Numbered from the stretch's first letter, positions 52,339 to 63,932 are shown. The stretch is DNA of 64,000 nucleotides from Peptococcaceae bacterium BRH_c8a (GCA_000961575.1 LADP01000042.1:124001-188000), one strand, 5' to 3'. Made by a program: numbers and translations. The notes: generated by a model from the sequence alone, not told the origin.

Positions 52339-54682
52339 AACCCGAATACCTTTCGATGTAGGGCTGCCACTATATAACACCCTAGGTGAAAAAACAAAAA
52401 AATGTATTAAAAAGCACAAAAAAGTTGCGCTGCTACTGGGAAGTATACCAGTTACCGTGCCGCTTTTTTATTTTGCTGATGTTTGGGTATTAGGTAGCGC
52501 CGCAGCTGCCGTATCTGATATTCAATCATGGTGGTCCGGGGTGAATATATTTTCTACTTCGGAGCAGAAGGCTGCAGCTGCTGAATATGTCAACTTATGG
52601 CCGTGGTATCTATCCCATCCTTTTCAGGCCGGCCGAGCCTGGCTGACAAGGCCGTCGGAGACATTAACCTATCCTGGAATAAAGCACATATGGCAATGGC
52701 TAAACGCACTACTTGCCGTAGGCTCCATTACAGGTTACCTGGGGTGGCGTATAACAGGTCGGCAAAATAAAGAGAACAGTTCAACCCGCGTGCATGGGCT
52801 AAAAGTTGTAAACAACCCGGCATACGGCACCTCCCGCTGGGCCGGGTTAAAAGATCTGGTTAACTTTTGCGAGTTGGGGCCGCCGGTACCTTTAGAGAAA
52901 AACGCAGGTAATCGAGTTAGGTTCCCCGGAGGCAACTTAATCGGTGAACTGGATGGCAAAAATATCAGAGTAAATTTTGAAAAGATGCCGGATGACACCC
53001 CCAAGACAGCACCGCATATGCTTGTGTTTGGCGGTACTGGTTCCGGTAAATCATTTAGCATTGTGATTGGCAATATTATCGCTGCTGTTTCCGAAGGGCA
53101 GAGCATCGTGGTCATCGACCCCAAAGGAGAGCTATTCTCTACTACCGGCAACTGGCTTAAGCAACAGGGTTATGAAAATGTATGGGTACTAAACTTTATG
53201 CAACCGGAACACAGCCATCGTTGGGACCCGGTAATCGAGTGTCTTGACGATGCTGAAATTTCGGAAATGATAGACACCCTTTCAAAAAATGCTTCTAGTG
53301 GAAGTGACTCTTACTTCATGTTAAAAGCAATGGAACTGATGGAGTCAATGATCGGGCTATTAAAGGGCGACTTTCCGGTTGAACAACAGCATATGCGGTC
53401 CATAATGACCCTAGCTGCATGGCCGGAAGAAAAGCTGGACGAGCGATTCCGGGAAGCTTACAAATCCGGTAAAATCAGCCCGACAATTTACGAACGCTGG
53501 CGTGGAGTAGTAAAGAAAAATTACGAGTACGCCGTTTCCAACTTAACAGCGGTTTTGAAAAACCTCACTACAGCATCACTGGCGGCCATGATGTCCGAGC
53601 AGGAAATAGACCTAAACCAAATAGGGCAGAAAAAGACGGCATTGTTTCTCATTATTCCGACCGGCGGGGAGGGGGTTTACCTCAAGCCGATTTTGTCCAT
53701 CTTTTATAAGTTTTTATTTAAAAGATTGGACAAGCTGGCCTTTAAAAGCCCTGGCCAAAAACTACCGGTGAAGGTTAGAAACATCTGGGACGAAATGGCT
53801 AACGTGGGCATGATTCCAGGCCTGCCGGAGATCATATCCACCGCCAGAAGTAAGGGTATCCATATTCAAATGATTTTACAAACCATTAAGCAATTAGAGT
53901 CCGTTTACGGTGTTAACGAGGCAAGTACGATACTGGGTAACTGCCCGACCGTTATGCTCATTGGTATTGCACCCGCCGACCGGGATTTGGCCCGGATGTT
54001 CAGTGAGTTATTGGGCACGGCGGCGGTGGAAGCGAAAAAAGTAAGCGAAGATTTGACCGTACCAGGAAAACATTTGTTTGAGTTAAAGAAAAAAACTCGA
54101 ACAGTTATCGAAAGACCACTAATGTCCACGGATGAAGTAATGCGGATTGGCCCCAAGGACTCTGTTGCTATTTTGCAATGGTTTAGGCCTTTGTATCTCC
54201 GCAAAGTTGGCTGGATAAAACTCCCCCAGGCGAAGGAAATCAAAAATTGCGGCATGTTACCGGTGGAGCAAATGATTCCGGCCAGAAGCTTTGAAATAAG
54301 CCTGCCGGAAATTGAGACTGACATGGAAACGCATAAAGATCCTGAATCTGCACTTTGGATGCAATTAAAAAGACGCTCAATGGTTGAAAACGAAGATAAC
54401 CAGCCGGCAACTGAACTTGGTTTATTGAAAAACAACATCCATGAAAACCAAAAACACGGAGGCAATACACCCAAACAACCCCAATCCCCTGATTTAACTA
54501 ATGATAACGGTTACAAAATGAACAGTTATAACCAATTAAATCCGGCTAATGATTATTTAGGGGAAATTGAACCCCAAAAGAATCATGAGGCAACGGAAGA
54601 ACTTGAGCCAACACAAAACAATGAAAATGTGGCGGAAAATGTAGATGCTCAAGGCTTTAATGTTAAATCACCATTATTTTAA
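52325..54682 (+). CDS. traG: VirD4/TraG-type T4SS coupling protein
   Basis: The protein has N-terminal helices (KVALLLGSIPVTVPLFYFADV and a second at about 130-150). It has TraG motifs TSRWAGLKDL, Walker A GGTGSGKSFS (about 235-244), Walker B SIVVIDPKGELF (about 259-270) and the IWDEMANVGMIPGLPEI box. The tail is Asn/Gln-rich. It brings the relaxase-DNA substrate to the channel. I choose TTG 52325 after GGGGGTG, overlapping the preceding gene by 14 bases, over the GTG at 52289. It is 36 kb from the other T4SS genes. Confidence 0.95.
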   Translation: MLRGKTRIPFDVGLPLYNTLGEKTKKCIKKHKKVALLLGSIPVTVPLFYFADVWVLGSAAAAVSDIQSWWSGVNIFSTSEQKAAAAEYVNLWPWYLSHPFQAGRAWLTRPSETLTYPGIKHIWQWLNALLAVGSITGYLGWRITGRQNKENSSTRVHGLKVVNNPAYGTSRWAGLKDLVNFCELGPPVPLEKNAGNRVRFPGGNLIGELDGKNIRVNFEKMPDDTPKTAPHMLVFGGTGSGKSFSIVIGNIIAAVSEGQSIVVIDPKGELFSTTGNWLKQQGYENVWVLNFMQPEHSHRWDPVIECLDDAEISEMIDTLSKNASSGSDSYFMLKAMELMESMIGLLKGDFPVEQQHMRSIMTLAAWPEEKLDERFREAYKSGKISPTIYERWRGVVKKNYEYAVSNLTAVLKNLTTASLAAMMSEQEIDLNQIGQKKTALFLIIPTGGEGVYLKPILSIFYKFLFKRLDKLAFKSPGQKLPVKVRNIWDEMANVGMIPGLPEIISTARSKGIHIQMILQTIKQLESVYGVNEASTILGNCPTVMLIGIAPADRDLARMFSELLGTAAVEAKKVSEDLTVPGKHLFELKKKTRTVIERPLMSTDEVMRIGPKDSVAILQWFRPLYLRKVGWIKLPQAKEIKNCGMLPVEQMIPARSFEISLPEIETDMETHKDPESALWMQLKRRSMVENEDNQPATELGLLKNNIHENQKHGGNTPKQPQSPDLTNDNGYKMNSYNQLNPANDYLGEIEPQKNHEATEELEPTQNNENVAENVDAQGFNVKSPLF

Positions 54683-54710
54683 AAATGCTTTAAACGAAAG
54701 GATGGTAGAC

Positions 54711-55721
54711 ATGGAATTCAAGATTGCACCGGAAGGAATCAAATTGAGGGACATTGATGTATGGGGGGACCTGTACGAAGCTATGGAAAGAGGCACTGCA
54801 GTTGAATCGGTGATAACAGGTGTAAGGCGTCCAAACGGAGATAATGGGGACGTTGAATGTTGGGAACTGGCTTTTGATAATAAGCCTGGAATAACCGGTT
54901 TTTGTAGTGCATTCGAATCCGGCCTGCCGGCGGGTACCCCGATAAATAATTTCGTGGGTCAAAGAATTGCCGGTAAGATCAGGCGAATTGAAAAGAAAAA
55001 TTCTTCAGTGGTGCTCAGCAGAAAGGATGCGGTTGAGGGCTCTATCAATAGGTTGATTGGCCAACTAAAGCTGGATGAAGAAATAAATGCAATGGTGCGG
55101 GTGGTCAACAGATACCTTTACGTTGATATTGGCGGTGGTGTACTTATAAGAATCATGCAGGAGAAGGCCAGGCAGTCCAATGGAGTACCCCTGCATGTGC
55201 AGTATGAAGTGGGCGCGATAATTAAGGTTAAGGTTACTGCACTGGATAGGGATAAAAAATCTATTGAGGTTGAACCCGTTGATCCGTGGAAAGATCACGA
55301 CTACAAACGGGGTGAAGTGCTCGCCGGCCAGGTTGCCAGTATAAAGGACAATCTGGCCTTTGTAACAGTCAAGCCTGGCATTATCGGCCGGGTTTATTAC
55401 AAAAAAACAGATAGATACGATTTAGGCGACTATATCAAACTGCAAGTAACGGATTTCAACGCAGAAAAGCGCCTACTTCACCTGATCGTATACGATGCCG
55501 GCAGGATTAATGACAGAAGGCGCAACCGGGCTAAAGCCAGATCAAAAGGACTTCGGCGTCAGAAAGGGGGTAATGAAATAAGGACAACAGGTGGCTTTGA
55601 TAGTATGCTCCAGGATCAAGCCGGTCAATCGCTTAAAATAAATGACCCAAAGGGTGAGATAGTGGAAAAACAGGGCTATGAGAGTGAGGACATCGGCAGC
55701 GTGGTGAATAAGGATGAGTAG
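54711..55721 (+). CDS. S1-domain RNA-binding-like protein
   Basis: About 336 residues from ATG 54711 (AAAGGAT upstream). The middle and C-terminal parts contain OB-fold S1-like segments (INAMVRVVNRYLYVDIGGG, then KRGEVLAGQVASIKDNLAFV with IIGRVYYK). A first segment (NFVGQRIAGKIRRIEKKNSS) looks like the end of another S1 unit. A basic stretch RRRNRAKARSKG precedes an acidic tail. Function on the element is unknown; S1 proteins bind single-stranded nucleic acid, so a role in DNA transfer or translation of hairpin leaders is conceivable. Confidence 0.75.
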   Translation: MEFKIAPEGIKLRDIDVWGDLYEAMERGTAVESVITGVRRPNGDNGDVECWELAFDNKPGITGFCSAFESGLPAGTPINNFVGQRIAGKIRRIEKKNSSVVLSRKDAVEGSINRLIGQLKLDEEINAMVRVVNRYLYVDIGGGVLIRIMQEKARQSNGVPLHVQYEVGAIIKVKVTALDRDKKSIEVEPVDPWKDHDYKRGEVLAGQVASIKDNLAFVTVKPGIIGRVYYKKTDRYDLGDYIKLQVTDFNAEKRLLHLIVYDAGRINDRRRNRAKARSKGLRRQKGGNEIRTTGGFDSMLQDQAGQSLKINDPKGEIVEKQGYESEDIGSVVNKDE

Positions 55722-57866: not shown

Positions 57867-58211
57867 ATGATGAACGAAGTATGGCTCATTGGAAGGCTTA
57901 CAAAGGATCCGGAGGAAAGACAAACCCCCGGTGGCAAGACGGTAACAAAAATGACTTTGGCCGTTGACCGTGACTATGAGAATTCAGAGGGAGAAAGGGA
58001 AACTGATTTTGTTGATGTTATTGCCTGGGAGAAGCTTGCTGAGAATTGCGTGAAATACCTTGGTAAGGGCCGCCTGGTTTCCGTCAGGGGGCGGTTGCAA
58101 ATTCGCTCCTATGACGACAGCCAGGGCATTCGCCGCAAGGCAGCTGAAGTGGTTGCCGAAAAAGTAAAATTCCTGGATAAGGCAAAGGAATCCAATAATG
58201 AGCACAAGTAA
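57867..58211 (+). CDS. ssb: Single-stranded DNA-binding protein (short, no acidic tip)
   Basis: The 114-residue OB-fold protein begins MNEVWLIGRLTKDPEERQTP and contains DFVDVIAWEKLAENCVKYLG and GRLQIRSYDD, all typical of SSB. It lacks the acidic DDIPF-type C-terminal tip used to recruit partner proteins (it ends SNNEHK), so it may serve only for coating transferred DNA. ATG 57867 or 57870 can serve as start, after AAAGGGG. Confidence 0.95.
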   Translation: MMNEVWLIGRLTKDPEERQTPGGKTVTKMTLAVDRDYENSEGERETDFVDVIAWEKLAENCVKYLGKGRLVSVRGRLQIRSYDDSQGIRRKAAEVVAEKVKFLDKAKESNNEHK

Positions 58212-58227
58212 AAAAGAGGTGATTTGC

Positions 58228-58518
58228 ATGCCACACCTGAGTTATAATAACCTTGAGGTGGTTGCTGTGGCCGTGCAAAAAGAACACTTAAAGGCTCTTA
58301 TTGACCGTTTAAACCAAGAGCAGTTACAGGCACTTTGGGTAATATTAAATTCCATGACCTGGCCAAAAGATGAGTTGGCTTTAAAAGCATTCGAAGAATC
58401 CTTGGAAGAAGAGGAATTAAGCCCGGAAGAGGAAGCTTGTCTACTGGAAAGTGAAAAACAAATACGAAAAGGTATGGGGATAAAAGCATCAGATGTCTGG
58501 GATGAAAATGGAATATGA
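58228..58518 (+). CDS. Antitoxin-like protein paired with RelE/ParE toxin
   Basis: ATG 58228 follows AGAGGTG, and I prefer it over the ATG at 58198. The product (about 96 residues) is acidic: ALWVILNSMTWPKDELALKA, EEELSPEEEACLLESEKQIR. It ends inside the start region of a RelE-type gene, the usual operon order (antitoxin first). The N-terminus probably forms the DNA-binding or dimer part. The family is not recognised in detail. Confidence 0.75.
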   Translation: MPHLSYNNLEVVAVAVQKEHLKALIDRLNQEQLQALWVILNSMTWPKDELALKAFEESLEEEELSPEEEACLLESEKQIRKGMGIKASDVWDENGI

Positions 58519-58765
58519 GATCATTTTCTCTCCCCGGGCGCGGAAAGACTTCAAAAAAATCGACAGAGAAACGAAAACCAAGGTCAAGGAAGCATTAAAA
58601 GGAATCTTGGCAGTTCCACCCAAAGGCGATATTAAAAAGTTAAAGGGATTTCAAGGACGGTTTCGTCTTAGAGTGGGTTACTGGCGAATACTATATTCCC
58701 TTGATAGAAAAATTGGGGAATTAATCGTCTTGGAAATCCTGCCAAGGAAAGATGCATATAAATAA
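58502..58765 (+). CDS. RelE/ParE-type toxin
   Basis: About 87 residues: MEYEIIFSPRARKDFKKIDR, then LKGFQGRFRLRVGYWRILYS and VLEILPRKDAYK, the classic RelE/ParE superfamily pattern with the basic C-terminal motif. ATG 58502 (or 58508) overlaps the antitoxin end. RelE-like toxins cleave mRNA on the ribosome. On a mobile element the pair stabilises inheritance. A terminator follows at 58790. Confidence 0.92.
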   Translation: MKMEYEIIFSPRARKDFKKIDRETKTKVKEALKGILAVPPKGDIKKLKGFQGRFRLRVGYWRILYSLDRKIGELIVLEILPRKDAYK

Positions 58766-60102: not shown

Positions 60103-60173
60103 GGGTTATGCCCGTTATCCTAACACATTCTATGGGAGGTGGATGGATACGGGCAATGCCCGTATCCGGTAAC
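60103..60173 (+). promoter_or_regulatory. Hairpin leader copy A (SD-hairpin-ATG)
   Basis: An upstream half GGGTTATGCCCGTTATCC (60103-60120) precedes GGGAGGTGG (60134-60142). The stem GGATACGGGC-AAT-GCCCGTATCC (60145-60167) and ATG 60174 follow. An ATG at 60143 directly after the ribosome site opens a nine-codon frame (MDTGNARIR) that stops at 60170-60172, two bases before the real start. Confidence 0.75.
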
Positions 60174-60554
60174 ATGGAAGAATTGCGGATAGAAGCAAAA
60201 GAAAGTGACGAACAATACTTAATTGAAAAATGGTTGAAAATAGGTAAGCGTAATCCTTGGATTAGGAATGCCTGTGATCCGCCTTTTACAAAAGAATCCT
60301 TTTACCGTTGCGAGACATTGGAAGATCTGTATTATGAGTTAATTAAGGGTAATTGGTGTTTAGCACAAGCATTTTACTTTGGGAATATAGCTTTTATTAA
60401 CCAGGTTGATGGCGGTGATGAATGGTTGGTTATCCGTAATGAGTTGCCGTTTGAAAGCATCACGGTAAAATATTTTAATTTTGATAAGTTTGTAGATTTT
60501 CACAACAGAATTAGAAAAGCAAATGATAAAACGTTAAAGAAATTGGAGTATTAA
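60174..60554 (+). CDS. Hypothetical protein behind hairpin leader A
   Basis: The 126-residue protein from ATG 60174 has no membrane segment or known motif; it includes WCLAQAFYFGNIAFINQVDG and ITVKYFNFDKFVDFHNRIR. The start is chosen because it lies six bases after the leader stem, and the codon composition becomes protein-like there. I recognise the general look of small plasmid-borne proteins (possibly an antirestriction or DNA-mimic role given the net acidity) but no family. Confidence 0.6.
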   Translation: MEELRIEAKESDEQYLIEKWLKIGKRNPWIRNACDPPFTKESFYRCETLEDLYYELIKGNWCLAQAFYFGNIAFINQVDGGDEWLVIRNELPFESITVKYFNFDKFVDFHNRIRKANDKTLKKLEY

Positions 60555-60583
60555 AAAACTATGAACGTAATTTTAGATAACTA

Positions 60584-60647
60584 GGGCTTATGCCCGTATC
60601 CAACACTAAGGAGGTGAATGGATGCGGGCGTGGCCCGTATCCGAAAA
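60584..60647 (+). promoter_or_regulatory. Hairpin leader copy B
   Basis: GGGCTTATGCCCGTATCC (60584-60601), AAGGAGGTG (60608-60616), stem GGATGCGGGC-GTG-GCCCGTATCC (60620-60642), then five bases and ATG 60648. In this copy the ATG at 60618 is in frame with the gene, which would add ten residues (MDAGVARIRK). The G-T change in the stem (GCGGGC vs GCCCGT) keeps pairing. Confidence 0.75.
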
Positions 60648-61106
60648 ATGGCTAAATTATGTCCGTTCAGAAAGAGAAGAATTATTGTAGCAGAGAATGA
60701 ATGGGAAGAACATTTTATGGAATGCCATCAAAAAGAATGTGCTATGTGGGTTGAGAATGGTTGCGGTCTGGGCCAGAATAATACGATAACTGACATGTCT
60801 ACCAGCCAGGAAGCGACAGCAGCAGAAGAGATTGAGCAAAACGGTGATGGCAGTGATGGAGAAATTAAGCCAAACGATAAACTACTTGAAACCTCTATCA
60901 AAGTTTTGGAAGTAAAAGAGACCAACACTCCCGGTACGGTAAGGGCTTGGTGTCAGTATACGGATAACGGCAAAAAAGAAGCCTTTTTTGCAAAAAACGG
61001 CGCCGGCCAGGTTTTGCTGGAGTTAATTGGCAAGCAGGTAACAACAAAGTACCGCCGCATGGATAACGGTAGCGCATTTGCGGTATTTGTAAAGGCGGAA
61101 GAGTAA
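60648..61106 (+). CDS. Hypothetical protein with cysteine-rich N-terminus behind leader B
   Basis: About 152 residues from ATG 60648 (or 162 from 60618). The N-terminus has a potential metal site (LCPFRKR, then MECHQKECAMWVENGCG). A Glu/Asp-rich linker follows. The C-terminal domain is strand-rich (TPGTVRAWCQYTDNGKKEAF, then TTKYRRMDNGSAFAVFV), possibly an OB-like fold. Family not recognised. Confidence 0.6.
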   Translation: MAKLCPFRKRRIIVAENEWEEHFMECHQKECAMWVENGCGLGQNNTITDMSTSQEATAAEEIEQNGDGSDGEIKPNDKLLETSIKVLEVKETNTPGTVRAWCQYTDNGKKEAFFAKNGAGQVLLELIGKQVTTKYRRMDNGSAFAVFVKAEE

Positions 61107-61132
61107 GCAAGGCCATACAGCCAGGAACTTTA

Positions 61133-61177
61133 AGGAGAACGATTTTGGGATAAATAATCCCTTGCGTTCTCCTTTTG
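61133..61177 (+). terminator. Rho-independent terminator
   Basis: GGAGAACG/CGTTCTCC encloses an inner GGGAT/ATCCC stem and is followed by TTTTGTTTTTTT. Confidence 0.88.
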
Positions 61178-61217
61178 TTTTTTTACATGTATTTCAAAAA
61201 GCAAAGAGGGGTAGGAA

Positions 61218-62234
61218 ATGCGATCATATGAGAAGTTTATCAAAGCCAAGCCATCGAATCCCTGCCCCATCTGCGGTGTGGGTGCTTGGTGTGGTTTTAA
61301 TAGCTATTTAGCAAGCTGCATGAGGATAAAGGAAGGTTCCTTCAAAGAAGTAACCATGAGCAACGGCCAGATTGCGTACCTCCATTGGCTTGATCCGGGC
61401 ATGGTAAACCTGCCGGCGCCCACGAGGGATGGTTTAATAATCGCTGAGCAAACTGCACCAGTTGAAGTTCGTGACCGTGTGTATAGAGAATTTTTAAGGC
61501 TGTTATCGCTTAACGCGCGCCATAAGGACGACCTTCTGCGGCGTGGACTTAGTGAAAAGGACATAGAAGAAAAATGCTTTAAGTCAGTCCCGGAAGCCGT
61601 CCCAGTAGGTAATAAACCATGGAAGATATGCCGCAGGCTCATTGAAAGTGGTTATAGCCTGACCGGTATTCCCGGGTATTACAAAGCCTATGGCCCATAT
61701 GGTGGCACATACTGGACCTTCGATCGGCAGCCCGGCTATTTCATCCCGGTACTTGACAACAAAGGCCGTATCCAGGCACTGCAGAGAAGGATGGATGACC
61801 CAAACCGGGGAGGCAAGTATAAGCTATTTAGCGGCCATAAACATCAGGGCGGTTGTACCTGCGGTACGCCGGCCCATATAGCCAGGCCGGAAAACCTAAG
61901 AGACCAACGGCTATGGATCACTGAAGGACCGTTAAAAGCTGATATTGCCTCTAAGTACCTGGGTGCAACATTAGTAGGTGCGCTTAGCGCGACTACATGG
62001 AAACCGGTTCTTGATGCAGTACTGGAATTGGGTGCAAAAGAAATTGTAATGGCTTACGACATGGACGCAGCAACCAACCCGATAGTGGCACGGTCGGAAA
62101 AGGCATTAAAATGCGAGCTGCTAAAGCACGGGTTAAAAGTACAACGGGCGGTTTGGGAAAACGGCAAGGGTATTGATGATGTGCTTGTGGCCATGCATAA
62201 AAGCAAAACGCTTAATAGCGCCGGGAGGTTTTAG
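61218..62234 (+). CDS. TOPRIM/DUF3854 primase-like protein
   Basis: The 338-residue protein has an N-terminal zinc-ribbon (NPCPICGVGAWC, then a later Cys). A DUF3854-type TOPRIM region has IPVLDNKGRIQALQRRMDD, LWITEGPLKADIASKYLG (acidic Glu about 235) and EIVMAYDMDAATNPIVARS (Asp pair). These are hallmarks of plasmid and ICE primase-like proteins. No helicase motif is present, so it may prime replication of the transferred strand together with SSB and TopB. The ribosome site is GAGGGG. Confidence 0.88.
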   Translation: MRSYEKFIKAKPSNPCPICGVGAWCGFNSYLASCMRIKEGSFKEVTMSNGQIAYLHWLDPGMVNLPAPTRDGLIIAEQTAPVEVRDRVYREFLRLLSLNARHKDDLLRRGLSEKDIEEKCFKSVPEAVPVGNKPWKICRRLIESGYSLTGIPGYYKAYGPYGGTYWTFDRQPGYFIPVLDNKGRIQALQRRMDDPNRGGKYKLFSGHKHQGGCTCGTPAHIARPENLRDQRLWITEGPLKADIASKYLGATLVGALSATTWKPVLDAVLELGAKEIVMAYDMDAATNPIVARSEKALKCELLKHGLKVQRAVWENGKGIDDVLVAMHKSKTLNSAGRF

Positions 62235-62237
62235 TAA

Positions 62238-62726
62238 ATGAAAATAATTTTAGAAAACGAAATGGAAAAGCAGGTTTGGGAAATTATGATGTCGGCTCAT
62301 TTTAAATGGGAAAGAAATCATGGAGCCCAATTGCAGGATTTCATAAGTTTTTATGTTAATGAGCTGTACATAGAAGAAGTAATGGAAATTCTTGACAAAG
62401 AGGTTGAGACAAGGTTGAAGGACTTATATGGAAATGAGTACTTTTGTAGTGAAGATGAATATATCTTAAACGGGATAGATAACAACATTAAGTATTGGAA
62501 TGATGATAGTTACTATGAGCCATATGAATTTCAAGAAATAGCTGATGAAATTAGTGATTGGATTAAAGATTATAGAGAAGTAAGAGAAGAAATAAAAGAT
62601 AACAGAGAGGACATAAAAGATGAGGTTGAGGATGAACTAAGATCATTTTATTATACTTTTTTCAATGCACCGGAAGAGCTGATCGTTATATACAATGGTG
62701 AGGTAATCCCAAGGTGCAAAAGATAG
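62238..62726 (+). CDS. Acidic hypothetical protein
   Basis: The 162-residue protein is very acidic with many Glu/Asp/Tyr residues (YWNDDSYYEPYEFQEIADEI, then EVREEIKDNREDIKDEVEDE). ATG 62238 follows GGGAGG at the end of the primase gene. It has no recognised family. Its charge would suit a DNA mimic or antirestriction protein, but that is speculation from composition. Confidence 0.6.
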   Translation: MKIILENEMEKQVWEIMMSAHFKWERNHGAQLQDFISFYVNELYIEEVMEILDKEVETRLKDLYGNEYFCSEDEYILNGIDNNIKYWNDDSYYEPYEFQEIADEISDWIKDYREVREEIKDNREDIKDEVEDELRSFYYTFFNAPEELIVIYNGEVIPRCKR

Positions 62727-62773
62727 TAATAATACACAGTTGTAGAGATGTAACCTAAATAATCGTGTAAATG

Positions 62774-62854
62774 GGACGGGCCATATGGGCCTGTAACCAA
62801 TCACTCGAAAGGGGGGTTGGATACCGGGCTCGGAAGGCCACGGTGTCCTAAAAA
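62774..62854 (+). promoter_or_regulatory. Hairpin leader copy C
   Basis: ACGGGCCATATGGGCCTGTAACC (about 62776-62798) is followed by GGGGGG (62811-62816). The stem pairs GGATACCG with CGGTGTCC (62819-62848), then six bases and ATG 62855. The stem differs from the other copies but still pairs, and the 5' half differs too. A TTG-initiated short frame begins at 62817-62819. Confidence 0.65.
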
Positions 62855-63112
62855 ATGGGAAAGAGAAGAAGGTTAACGCTTGAGAAAAAGTGCAATTTAG
62901 TGAGGGAATTTGCTGAGAAGCTGATCAATGAATTTGAAGAGAAGGGAAAATCTGAGAAAGATGTGTTATGTTCAATGGCTCAATGGGCTAAGGAAATGAA
63001 ATTCCGGGAATACTGGTTTGCCATTGATACGAAACTACAAAGGCGATATGAATGTGCCAGTTGGTTCTGGATGGTGCGTAGACTGAGAAACTACCCGGAT
63101 TATTGGAAATAG
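62855..63112 (+). CDS. Small basic hypothetical protein behind leader C
   Basis: The 85-residue protein is Lys/Arg/Glu-rich and helical (GKRRRLTLEKKCNLVREFAE, then WAKEMKFREYWFAIDTKLQR). ATG 62855 is six bases after the leader stem. No family recognised. It could be a small nucleic-acid-binding protein. Confidence 0.6.
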   Translation: MGKRRRLTLEKKCNLVREFAEKLINEFEEKGKSEKDVLCSMAQWAKEMKFREYWFAIDTKLQRRYECASWFWMVRRLRNYPDYWK

Positions 63113-63162
63113 CTGATCGGTATTATAAGAGCTGCAACATAATAAAGTGGCATAAATAAACC

Positions 63163-63233
63163 GGGCACGCGCCCGTAATCCAATCATCTTTAAGGAGGTG
63201 AATGGATACGGGCGGCAGCCCGTATCCGTGAAC
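63163..63233 (+). promoter_or_regulatory. Hairpin leader copy D
   Basis: GGGCACGCGCCCGTAATCC (63163-63181), AAGGAGGTG (63192-63200), stem GGATACGGGC-GGCA-GCCCGTATCC (63204-63227), then six bases and ATG 63234. An ATG at 63202 after the ribosome site opens a nine-codon frame (MDTGGSPYP) ending at TGA 63229-63231. Confidence 0.75.
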
Positions 63234-63932
63234 ATGTTATGGAGTGAGGAATATTTAAAACAGTATACAGTACAGGACCAATTCAAAGGACAAAGGACAC
63301 TGGCCTCGGTGGCCAAGGAAGAGGTCATGTGTTATGGAGTTGGGACGTCGGAATTAACGGGCGTACTCGTTTCAATTCTGGGTGAAGTGCCCGATGAAAC
63401 CTTGAATTATTTGATGAAACAAGGAATTCGAGCAATTTCGGAAATGACGCTCGAAGAATTAATGAATTTGTCGGGTATTGGAAAGGAAAAAGGGCTACGC
63501 TTGGCTGCTGCTTTTGAGCTGGCCCGGCGCTTGGCGCGGATCATGCCGGAGGATAAACCAGTAATTAGATCCCCGGAAAATGCCGTAGCCTTAGTAATGG
63601 AAGAGATGCGCCACCTGGACCGGGAGCATTTCTGGGCACTTTTGCTTAACGCCAAAAATCAGGTGCTGGCCCGTGAAGTGATTTCCATCGGGACGCTGAA
63701 CTTTTCAGCTATTCATCCCCGGGAACTGTTCAAGGCGGCCATCAGGCGCAGCGCAGCAGGGGTAATCATGGTGCACAACCATCCCAGCGGAGATCCCACG
63801 CCTAGCCGGCAGGATATTGAGGCCACCACGCGTCTGGTGGATGCGGGGAATATTGTAGGAATCGACGTGCTGGATCACCTGGTGATCGGTGACAATAAAT
63901 TTACGAGCTTCAAGGCCAAAGGATTGATTTGA
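63234..63932 (+). CDS. radC: RadC/YeeS-family JAB-domain protein
   Basis: About 232 residues. The N-terminal part has a helix-hairpin-helix (MNLSGIGKEKGLRLAAAFEL). The JAB/MPN part has HFWALLLNAKNQVL, ELFKAAIRRSAAGVIMVHNH and the metal motif HNHPSGDPTPS (about 180-190) followed by D. This is the normal RadC layout. RadC homologues are very common on mobile elements, often near antirestriction genes; their role is unclear. It is translated from behind hairpin leader D. Confidence 0.93.
   Translation: MLWSEEYLKQYTVQDQFKGQRTLASVAKEEVMCYGVGTSELTGVLVSILGEVPDETLNYLMKQGIRAISEMTLEELMNLSGIGKEKGLRLAAAFELARRLARIMPEDKPVIRSPENAVALVMEEMRHLDREHFWALLLNAKNQVLAREVISIGTLNFSAIHPRELFKAAIRRSAAGVIMVHNHPSGDPTPSRQDIEATTRLVDAGNIVGIDVLDHLVIGDNKFTSFKAKGLI

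Follow-up and report, generated by a model that had tools for sequence, protein, structure and literature searches.

The leaders described here lie in a stretch of 64,000 nucleotides (nt) from Peptococcaceae bacterium BRH_c8a (GCA_000961575.1 LADP01000042.1:124001-188000), which is called the window. Four genes of a conjugative element in this window are each preceded by a leader with an upstream hairpin (H1), a Shine-Dalgarno sequence (SD) and a second hairpin (H2) that separates the SD from the start codon. Each leader of this kind, about 75 nt long, is probably a cis-acting bistable translational switch in front of one accessory gene of a conjugative element. Two mutually exclusive pairings, a long rod and the separate hairpins H1 and H2, both appear to be under selection. 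The two pairings, their conservation, their geometry and their gene contexts were all read from the sequences. The leaders apparently represent a large, undescribed RNA family with more than 150 members.

The original prediction had pointed to four leaders in the window (60103, 60584, 62774 and 63163). All four are present as described, and each has the order H1, SD, H2, 5-6 nt and ATG. Their parts and the genes behind them are listed below, with H2 lengths in base pairs (bp) and spacing measured from SD to ATG.

60103..60113, + strand: leader 1 H1, GGGT-TAT-GCCC
60110-60120, + strand: leader 1 upstream rod strand, the H1 3' arm and following bases, GCCCGTTATCC
60134..60139, + strand: leader 1 SD, GGGAGG
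60145..60167, + strand: leader 1 H2, 10 bp; ATG at 60174; spacing 34 linear, 11 with H2 excised
60174..60554, + strand: leader 1 gene, 126 amino acids (aa), without Pfam match
60584..60595, + strand: leader 2 H1
60592-60602, + strand: leader 2 upstream rod strand, GCCCGTATCCA, which pairs with 60619-60629
60609..60614, + strand: leader 2 SD, AGGAGG
60620..60642, + strand: leader 2 H2, 10 bp including one G-U; ATG at 60648; spacing 33 linear, 10 excised
60648..61106, + strand: leader 2 gene, 152 aa, with a CPF-type cysteine N-terminus and a predicted C-terminal OB fold
62776..62794, + strand: leader 3 H1
62819..62848, + strand: leader 3 H2, 12 bp and one bulge, GGATACCG.GGC / GCC.A.CGGTGTCC
62815 (SD end) and 62855 (ATG), + strand: leader 3, spacing 39 linear, 9 excised
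62855..63112, + strand: leader 3 gene, 85 aa, without Pfam match; relatives stand behind a leader in two other elements
63162..63175, + strand: leader 4 H1 (CGGGC/GCCCG)
63171-63181, + strand: leader 4 upstream rod strand
63193..63198, + strand: leader 4 SD, AGGAGG
63204..63227, + strand: leader 4 H2, perfect 10 bp; ATG at 63234; spacing 35 linear, 11 excised
63234..63932, + strand: leader 4 gene, radC (PF04002, 3e-47)

The inverted repeat GGATACGGGC-N-GCCCGTATCC, exact over 10 bp, occurs twice in the window, against none expected from 100 shuffles. When H2 is excised, the spacing is 11, 10, 9 and 11 nt in leaders 1 to 4 (with the 10-bp core taken as H2 in leader 4), which agrees with the spacing of about 10-11 bases given earlier. 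The compensating stem changes that had been proposed among the four copies were not found; their H2 sequences differ only by G-U wobbles and by one insertion with a bulge (62819). The 3' arm of H1 is complementary to the 5' arm of H2, over 11 bp in the copy at 60584, and this gives a competing fold.

A pattern search of the order (113 genomes) detected the leader in seven genomes. The covariance model R1, built from nine of these leaders, found it in 34 genomes of the order, and the model R2, built from 109 leaders, in 42 genomes and 31 of the 55 genera. In a phylum sample of 398 genomes, R2 matched 24, of which 19 are outside the order. The search with a covariance model and the covariation test, which the original prediction had named as its check, thus yielded a wide set of homologues with covariation above shuffles. 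Most of the genomes carry several leaders (18 at most), which are usually clustered, with one leader per gene. The 18 leaders of a single genome (G061; L066, L070, L071) form at least three separate clusters, apparently on several related elements. In total 161 distinct leaders were analysed, including 91 non-redundant ones, and 150 rows were aligned. Each match examined further in the R2 cmsearch over the fetched loci lay on the same strand as the gene behind it, and the start codon was located exactly at the model end in 156 of the 161 leaders (ATG in 153). The same leaders, together with radC and a DUF932-like gene, were also observed on a 108-kb contig listed as viral (IMGVR_UViG_2599185230_000001; L004/L005), which may instead be a conjugative element. 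Rfam searches of the window and of other loci, at gathering and at permissive E-values, gave chance matches only and no family, in line with the statement that no named RNA family has this layout. A description of the leader is absent from the open-licence literature searched, and a plasmid search with leader 4 returned a single weak, chance-like match (Streptomyces).

No other helix of the leader is nearly as well conserved as H2. Its length is 8-14 bp in nearly all of the 161 leaders; the linear distance from SD to AUG has a mean of 35.1 nt, and with H2 excised the mean becomes 9.3 (mostly 9-11, modes 10-11). For comparison, the median spacing is 7 in 11 ordinary window genes in which an SD can be recognised. 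In the T4 genes 25 and 38, SD and AUG can be bridged by a hairpin that lies between them (PMC3014915), and the geometry of the leaders agrees with the earlier suggestion that the hairpin brings the two to a workable distance as in T4 gene 38. By this analogy H2 has the bridge geometry of the T4 gene 25/38 type; that it increases translation is a prediction. In the 150-row alignment, which was fitted to the model's structure so that its statistics lean towards that structure, 97.5% of the H1 and H2 cells are paired, double-sided changes number 303 cells against 115 +/- 7 in shuffles, and the covariation score is 0.51 against 0.19 in shuffles, while slid control structures collapse. The proposed selection on stem pairing is thus seen in the double-sided compensations of the wider family.

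Among the pairs, G-U (115) far exceeds A-C (6), which suggests that the sense-strand RNA is under selection, unlike the expectation for a DNA palindrome. This asymmetry bears on the explanation that the leader acts at the DNA level, either as a single-stranded promoter or origin hairpin during entry into the recipient (Frpo-like) or as a palindromic repressor site in double-stranded DNA. The gene content does resemble that of the leading regions of plasmids, in which hairpins of this kind are present (PMC11541004). However, the pairing is strand-specific and of the RNA type, the palindrome is held at a fixed distance between SD and AUG, and neither bases nor promoter boxes are conserved upstream of the leader, so that a DNA-level element is highly improbable. 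The 40 nt upstream of the leader showed no positional conservation, on which ground the idea of a promoter just before H1 was dropped; promoter boxes of the folded strand were not searched for. The double-stranded palindromic operator was ruled out by the asymmetry of G-U and A-C.

When the whole leader is folded, the H1 3' arm and the following bases pair with the H2 5' arm, and pairing between the H1 5' arm and the H2 3' arm is frequent. The resulting rod encloses the SD at its tip, often in a small stem of its own. It is the predicted energy minimum in 132 of the 161 leaders (82%) and in 74 of the 91 non-redundant ones. When the upstream halves were swapped between leaders, the rod was the minimum in 32% (29% non-redundant), and when they were shuffled, in 9% (7% non-redundant). 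The median energy difference between the rod and the H2 state is -4.1 kcal/mol in the native leaders versus about +4 kcal/mol in the swapped ones. The leaders' own rod duplexes are also stronger than permuted ones, with z of -10 for the whole set and -7.8 for the stratum of greatest diversity. Moreover, the rod was predicted in 22 of 30 leaders from 15 loci of other families, none of which was used for model building. The rod is absent from both covariance models, and therefore this test is not circular.

These results weigh on another explanation, a constitutive split ribosome-binding site (RBS), in which H2 merely bridges SD and AUG, the rod is a by-product of the sequence shared by H1 and H2, and no switching occurs. 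The pre-eminent conservation of H2 and the excised spacing, which matches that of T4 gene 25 (11 nt), would suit such a site. A plain bridge, however, would have no need of H1, and each upstream half fits its own H2 better than that of other leaders, as the swaps indicate. The rod pairs also reach outside the H1 stem, with a mean of 5.9 such pairs per leader (16 bp in L073:5581 and 11 bp in L056:8458), so the resemblance of H1 and H2 alone is not the source of the match. The constitutive site is thus rather unlikely. The original prediction had read the leaders as a shared post-transcriptional control cassette with a hairpin bridged by the ribosome. The hairpin between SD and AUG is retained from that reading, which was incomplete in that the upstream hairpin also supplies a strand of the SD-hiding rod. 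As the rod would both hide the SD and remove H2, a two-state switch is suggested rather than just a bridged RBS.

Several points weigh against the switch. The energies were calculated with a nearest-neighbour model that includes neither proteins nor ribosomes, 17 of the 91 leaders are predicted to prefer H2, and part of the SD is paired in either predicted state. The rod duplex signal reaches only z of about -2 in two homogeneous strata, and the permutations leave some shared ancestry in. Co-transcriptional prefixes gave the rod in 91 of 91 native leaders but also in 423 of 455 swapped controls (93%); since the two are nearly equal, the prefix test does not discriminate and was not used as evidence.

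Folding was also predicted over a range of temperatures, and the balance of rod and H2 is flat from 20 to 70 C, with the rod in 71-79 of the 91 leaders. This concerns a further group of explanations, namely an RNA thermometer, a metabolite riboswitch or an RNase III processing site, which together seem very unlikely. The SD-enclosing rod resembles thermometers, and a long imperfect duplex could be a substrate for RNase III, both as resemblances only. The thermometer was dropped, as no melting of the SD-hiding fold with temperature was predicted. As regards a riboswitch, no conserved aptamer-like unpaired core was noticed, the conserved positions in the A4 and A5 alignments being the SD and stem bases, and Rfam gave no match.

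For the two-state switch, we infer that these folds act in the cell and that the rod is the OFF state. In this state the H1 3' arm and the following bases would pair with the H2 5' arm, and the H1 5' arm could pair with the H2 3' arm to complete one rod. The SD would then be in or near the rod tip, the distance from SD to AUG would stay at about 35 nt, and the bridge would be lost. In the ON state H1 and H2 would form separately, with the SD open or in a weak hairpin at most, and with about 25 nt looped out by H2 the ribosome would see a spacing of about 9-11 nt, as at a split RBS. H2 would be a required bridge, not a block. The simplest reading is that the switch would be closed by default. 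A trans-acting factor may shift the balance between the rod and the separate hairpins.

The H2 stem sequences differ within one element (L059, L087), which argues against a sequence-specific factor and for a structure-directed or general RNA chaperone. The same variation, together with the short and variable H1, speaks against another explanation, in which H1 and H2 would be operator hairpins bound by a structure-specific RNA-binding protein of the element, either a repressor or an activator; the OB-fold protein encoded behind leader 2 would be one example. Besides the SD, strong conservation of unpaired bases was not noticed. On the other side, there are two similar hairpins per leader and several leaders per element, and the OB-fold protein, of a nucleic-acid-binding type, is itself found behind a leader in more than 20 elements. 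Such an operator is unlikely as the sole explanation, and it could coexist with the switch.

For the switch, the within-element stem differences make a protein with S1 domains encoded by the element the leading candidate for the trans-acting factor. Its gene in the window is as follows.

54645..55721, + strand: three-repeat S1/OB protein, 358 aa, directly after the VirD4-like coupling-protein gene; barrels predicted

Among structures, bS1 of the 30S mRNA delivery complex is the best match of this protein. The protein occurs in 35 of the 113 genomes of the order, including 32 of the 35 genomes with strong leaders versus 3 of the 78 others (hypergeometric, 2.6e-21). In two of these three a weak leader or a leader-like match is nearby; the remaining one is a contig of 7.6 kb. 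In E. coli, S1 needs no more than its first three OB domains to melt structured mRNA on the 30S subunit, and the S1 of B. subtilis is non-essential (PMC3858243), which makes an S1-like opener borne by the element attractive. It might be that the conjugative elements of these Firmicutes carry both a rod-locked regulon and their own three-repeat S1-domain protein, which would open the rods into the bridging H1 and H2 on the host ribosome. This proposal is tentative and given a low probability, because the co-occurrence is confounded by element lineage and tracks the neighbouring VirD4-like gene. If true, it would represent a private RNA-chaperone system, which would tie the expression of anti-restriction genes to the presence of a translation factor that the element itself encodes. 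The candidate is an S1-like protein borne by an element in bacteria where S1 is thought to be of little importance (PMC3858243, for B. subtilis).

The leaders precede unrelated genes including radC, as had been stated, and the range extends to ArdC-like, OB-fold, PD-(D/E)XK and methyltransferase proteins. The largest clusters of genes behind the leaders encode the OB-fold protein (22 members), ArdC-like proteins (22, with PF08401 in the representative) and RadC (17); smaller ones include PD-(D/E)XK (5), DUF6573 (5) and DUF6094 methyltransferase (2), besides many singletons. Members of the OB-fold cluster are CPF-cysteine or coiled-coil proteins with a C-terminal OB fold, judging from the predicted fold and weak SSB-like matches. 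The leader 2 protein (60648-61106) has a cysteine-rich N-terminus, and its family, found in more than 20 elements, is with the ArdC-like family the most frequent behind leaders. This gene set resembles the establishment or leading-region genes of conjugative elements (PMC11541004, PMC8708921), and the accessory genes behind the leaders resemble an anti-restriction type set of this kind. In the window element itself, genes for a VirD4-like coupling protein and for a topoisomerase lie among conjugation-type genes.

Some other features were observed around the leaders. A DUF3854 protein (window 61218-62234) lies within the leader cluster without a leader of its own, and in 26 of 59 loci a homologue lies close to leaders. 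A pair (window 58198-58765) that we take to be RelB/RelE-like from its sequence, rather than from a family search, stands between the genes ssb and DUF932, with homologues near leaders in 14-15 of the 59 loci. A terminator-like GC hairpin with a T-rich stretch, for example GGACGGTCCTGTAAAGAGACCGTCCTTGCCATT, was seen 10-40 nt upstream of H1 in L067, L070, L085, L086 and others, as though a transcript crossing from one gene to the next had to pass a terminator.

If the two-state switch is true, one conformational change would alter SD access and the distance from SD to AUG together, and a large unnamed cis-regulatory RNA family would unite two mechanisms otherwise known separately. The leaders stand before anti-restriction (ArdC-like) genes, radC and other such genes carried by conjugative elements. 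The rapid but transient expression of these genes in the recipient is an open question in Gram-positive bacteria, and the mechanism of EGeRS1, a repeated sequence of Bacillus plasmids, is unknown (PMC8708921). The family also provides a covariance model that is ready for use, numerous natural variants and a candidate for the trans-acting factor.

The closest known geometry is that of the T4 split sites, where a hairpin shortens the spacing from SD to AUG from 27 to 11 nt (gene 25) and from 22 to 5 nt (gene 38) (PMC3014915). As in these genes, a hairpin makes an over-long spacing workable, here by geometry alone. However, the T4 examples are single phage genes with no described competing SD-hiding rod, whereas more than 150 leaders share one architecture, in which H1 is complementary to H2, and the genes that they precede are unrelated. 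The radC RNA motif RF01754 (Weinberg 2010) is likewise a cis-regulatory RNA candidate, named for radC; its model has 149 positions, and it is listed for Proteobacteria (PMC2864571). It gave no match in the window (gathering threshold), the leader region (E up to 5) or the other loci, nor in the whole genome of the window, the last being a weak test as control genomes gave no matches either. EGeRS1 and EGeRS2 are repeated sequences before ardC and other establishment genes of pLS20-family Bacillus plasmids, and EGeRS1 is rich in inverted repeats (PMC8708921). Like the leaders, they are recurring conserved sequences before establishment genes of Gram-positive conjugative elements. EGeRS1, however, spans 420-750 bp upstream of the RBS, and EGeRS2 comprises strong promoters under a repressor; the leaders, at about 75 nt, contain the RBS and have no upstream conservation, so they do not belong to either class. 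Hairpins are also repeated before leading-region anti-defence genes in the Frpo/ssi single-stranded DNA promoters (PMC11541004). Those act at the DNA level with -35 and -10 elements, whereas in the leaders the SD is surrounded by pairing of the RNA type, and conserved promoter boxes are absent.

In bistable leaders of the erm or attenuator type, alternative pairing of four segments (1:2 and 3:4 versus 2:3) controls access to the SD. In the erm type 3:4 hides the SD, whereas in the leaders 3:4 would be the bridge and 2:3 would hide the SD. On inspection, ATG or GTG stands in some H1 loops, inconsistently, and no conserved leader peptide was noticed. As is characteristic of a bistable switch, the modelled leaders have two exclusive conserved pairings, one of them predicted to hide the SD, under both the swap and the shuffle controls. 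The proposed mechanism joins two already known principles, a hairpin that serves as a bridge and an alternative fold in which the SD is hidden.

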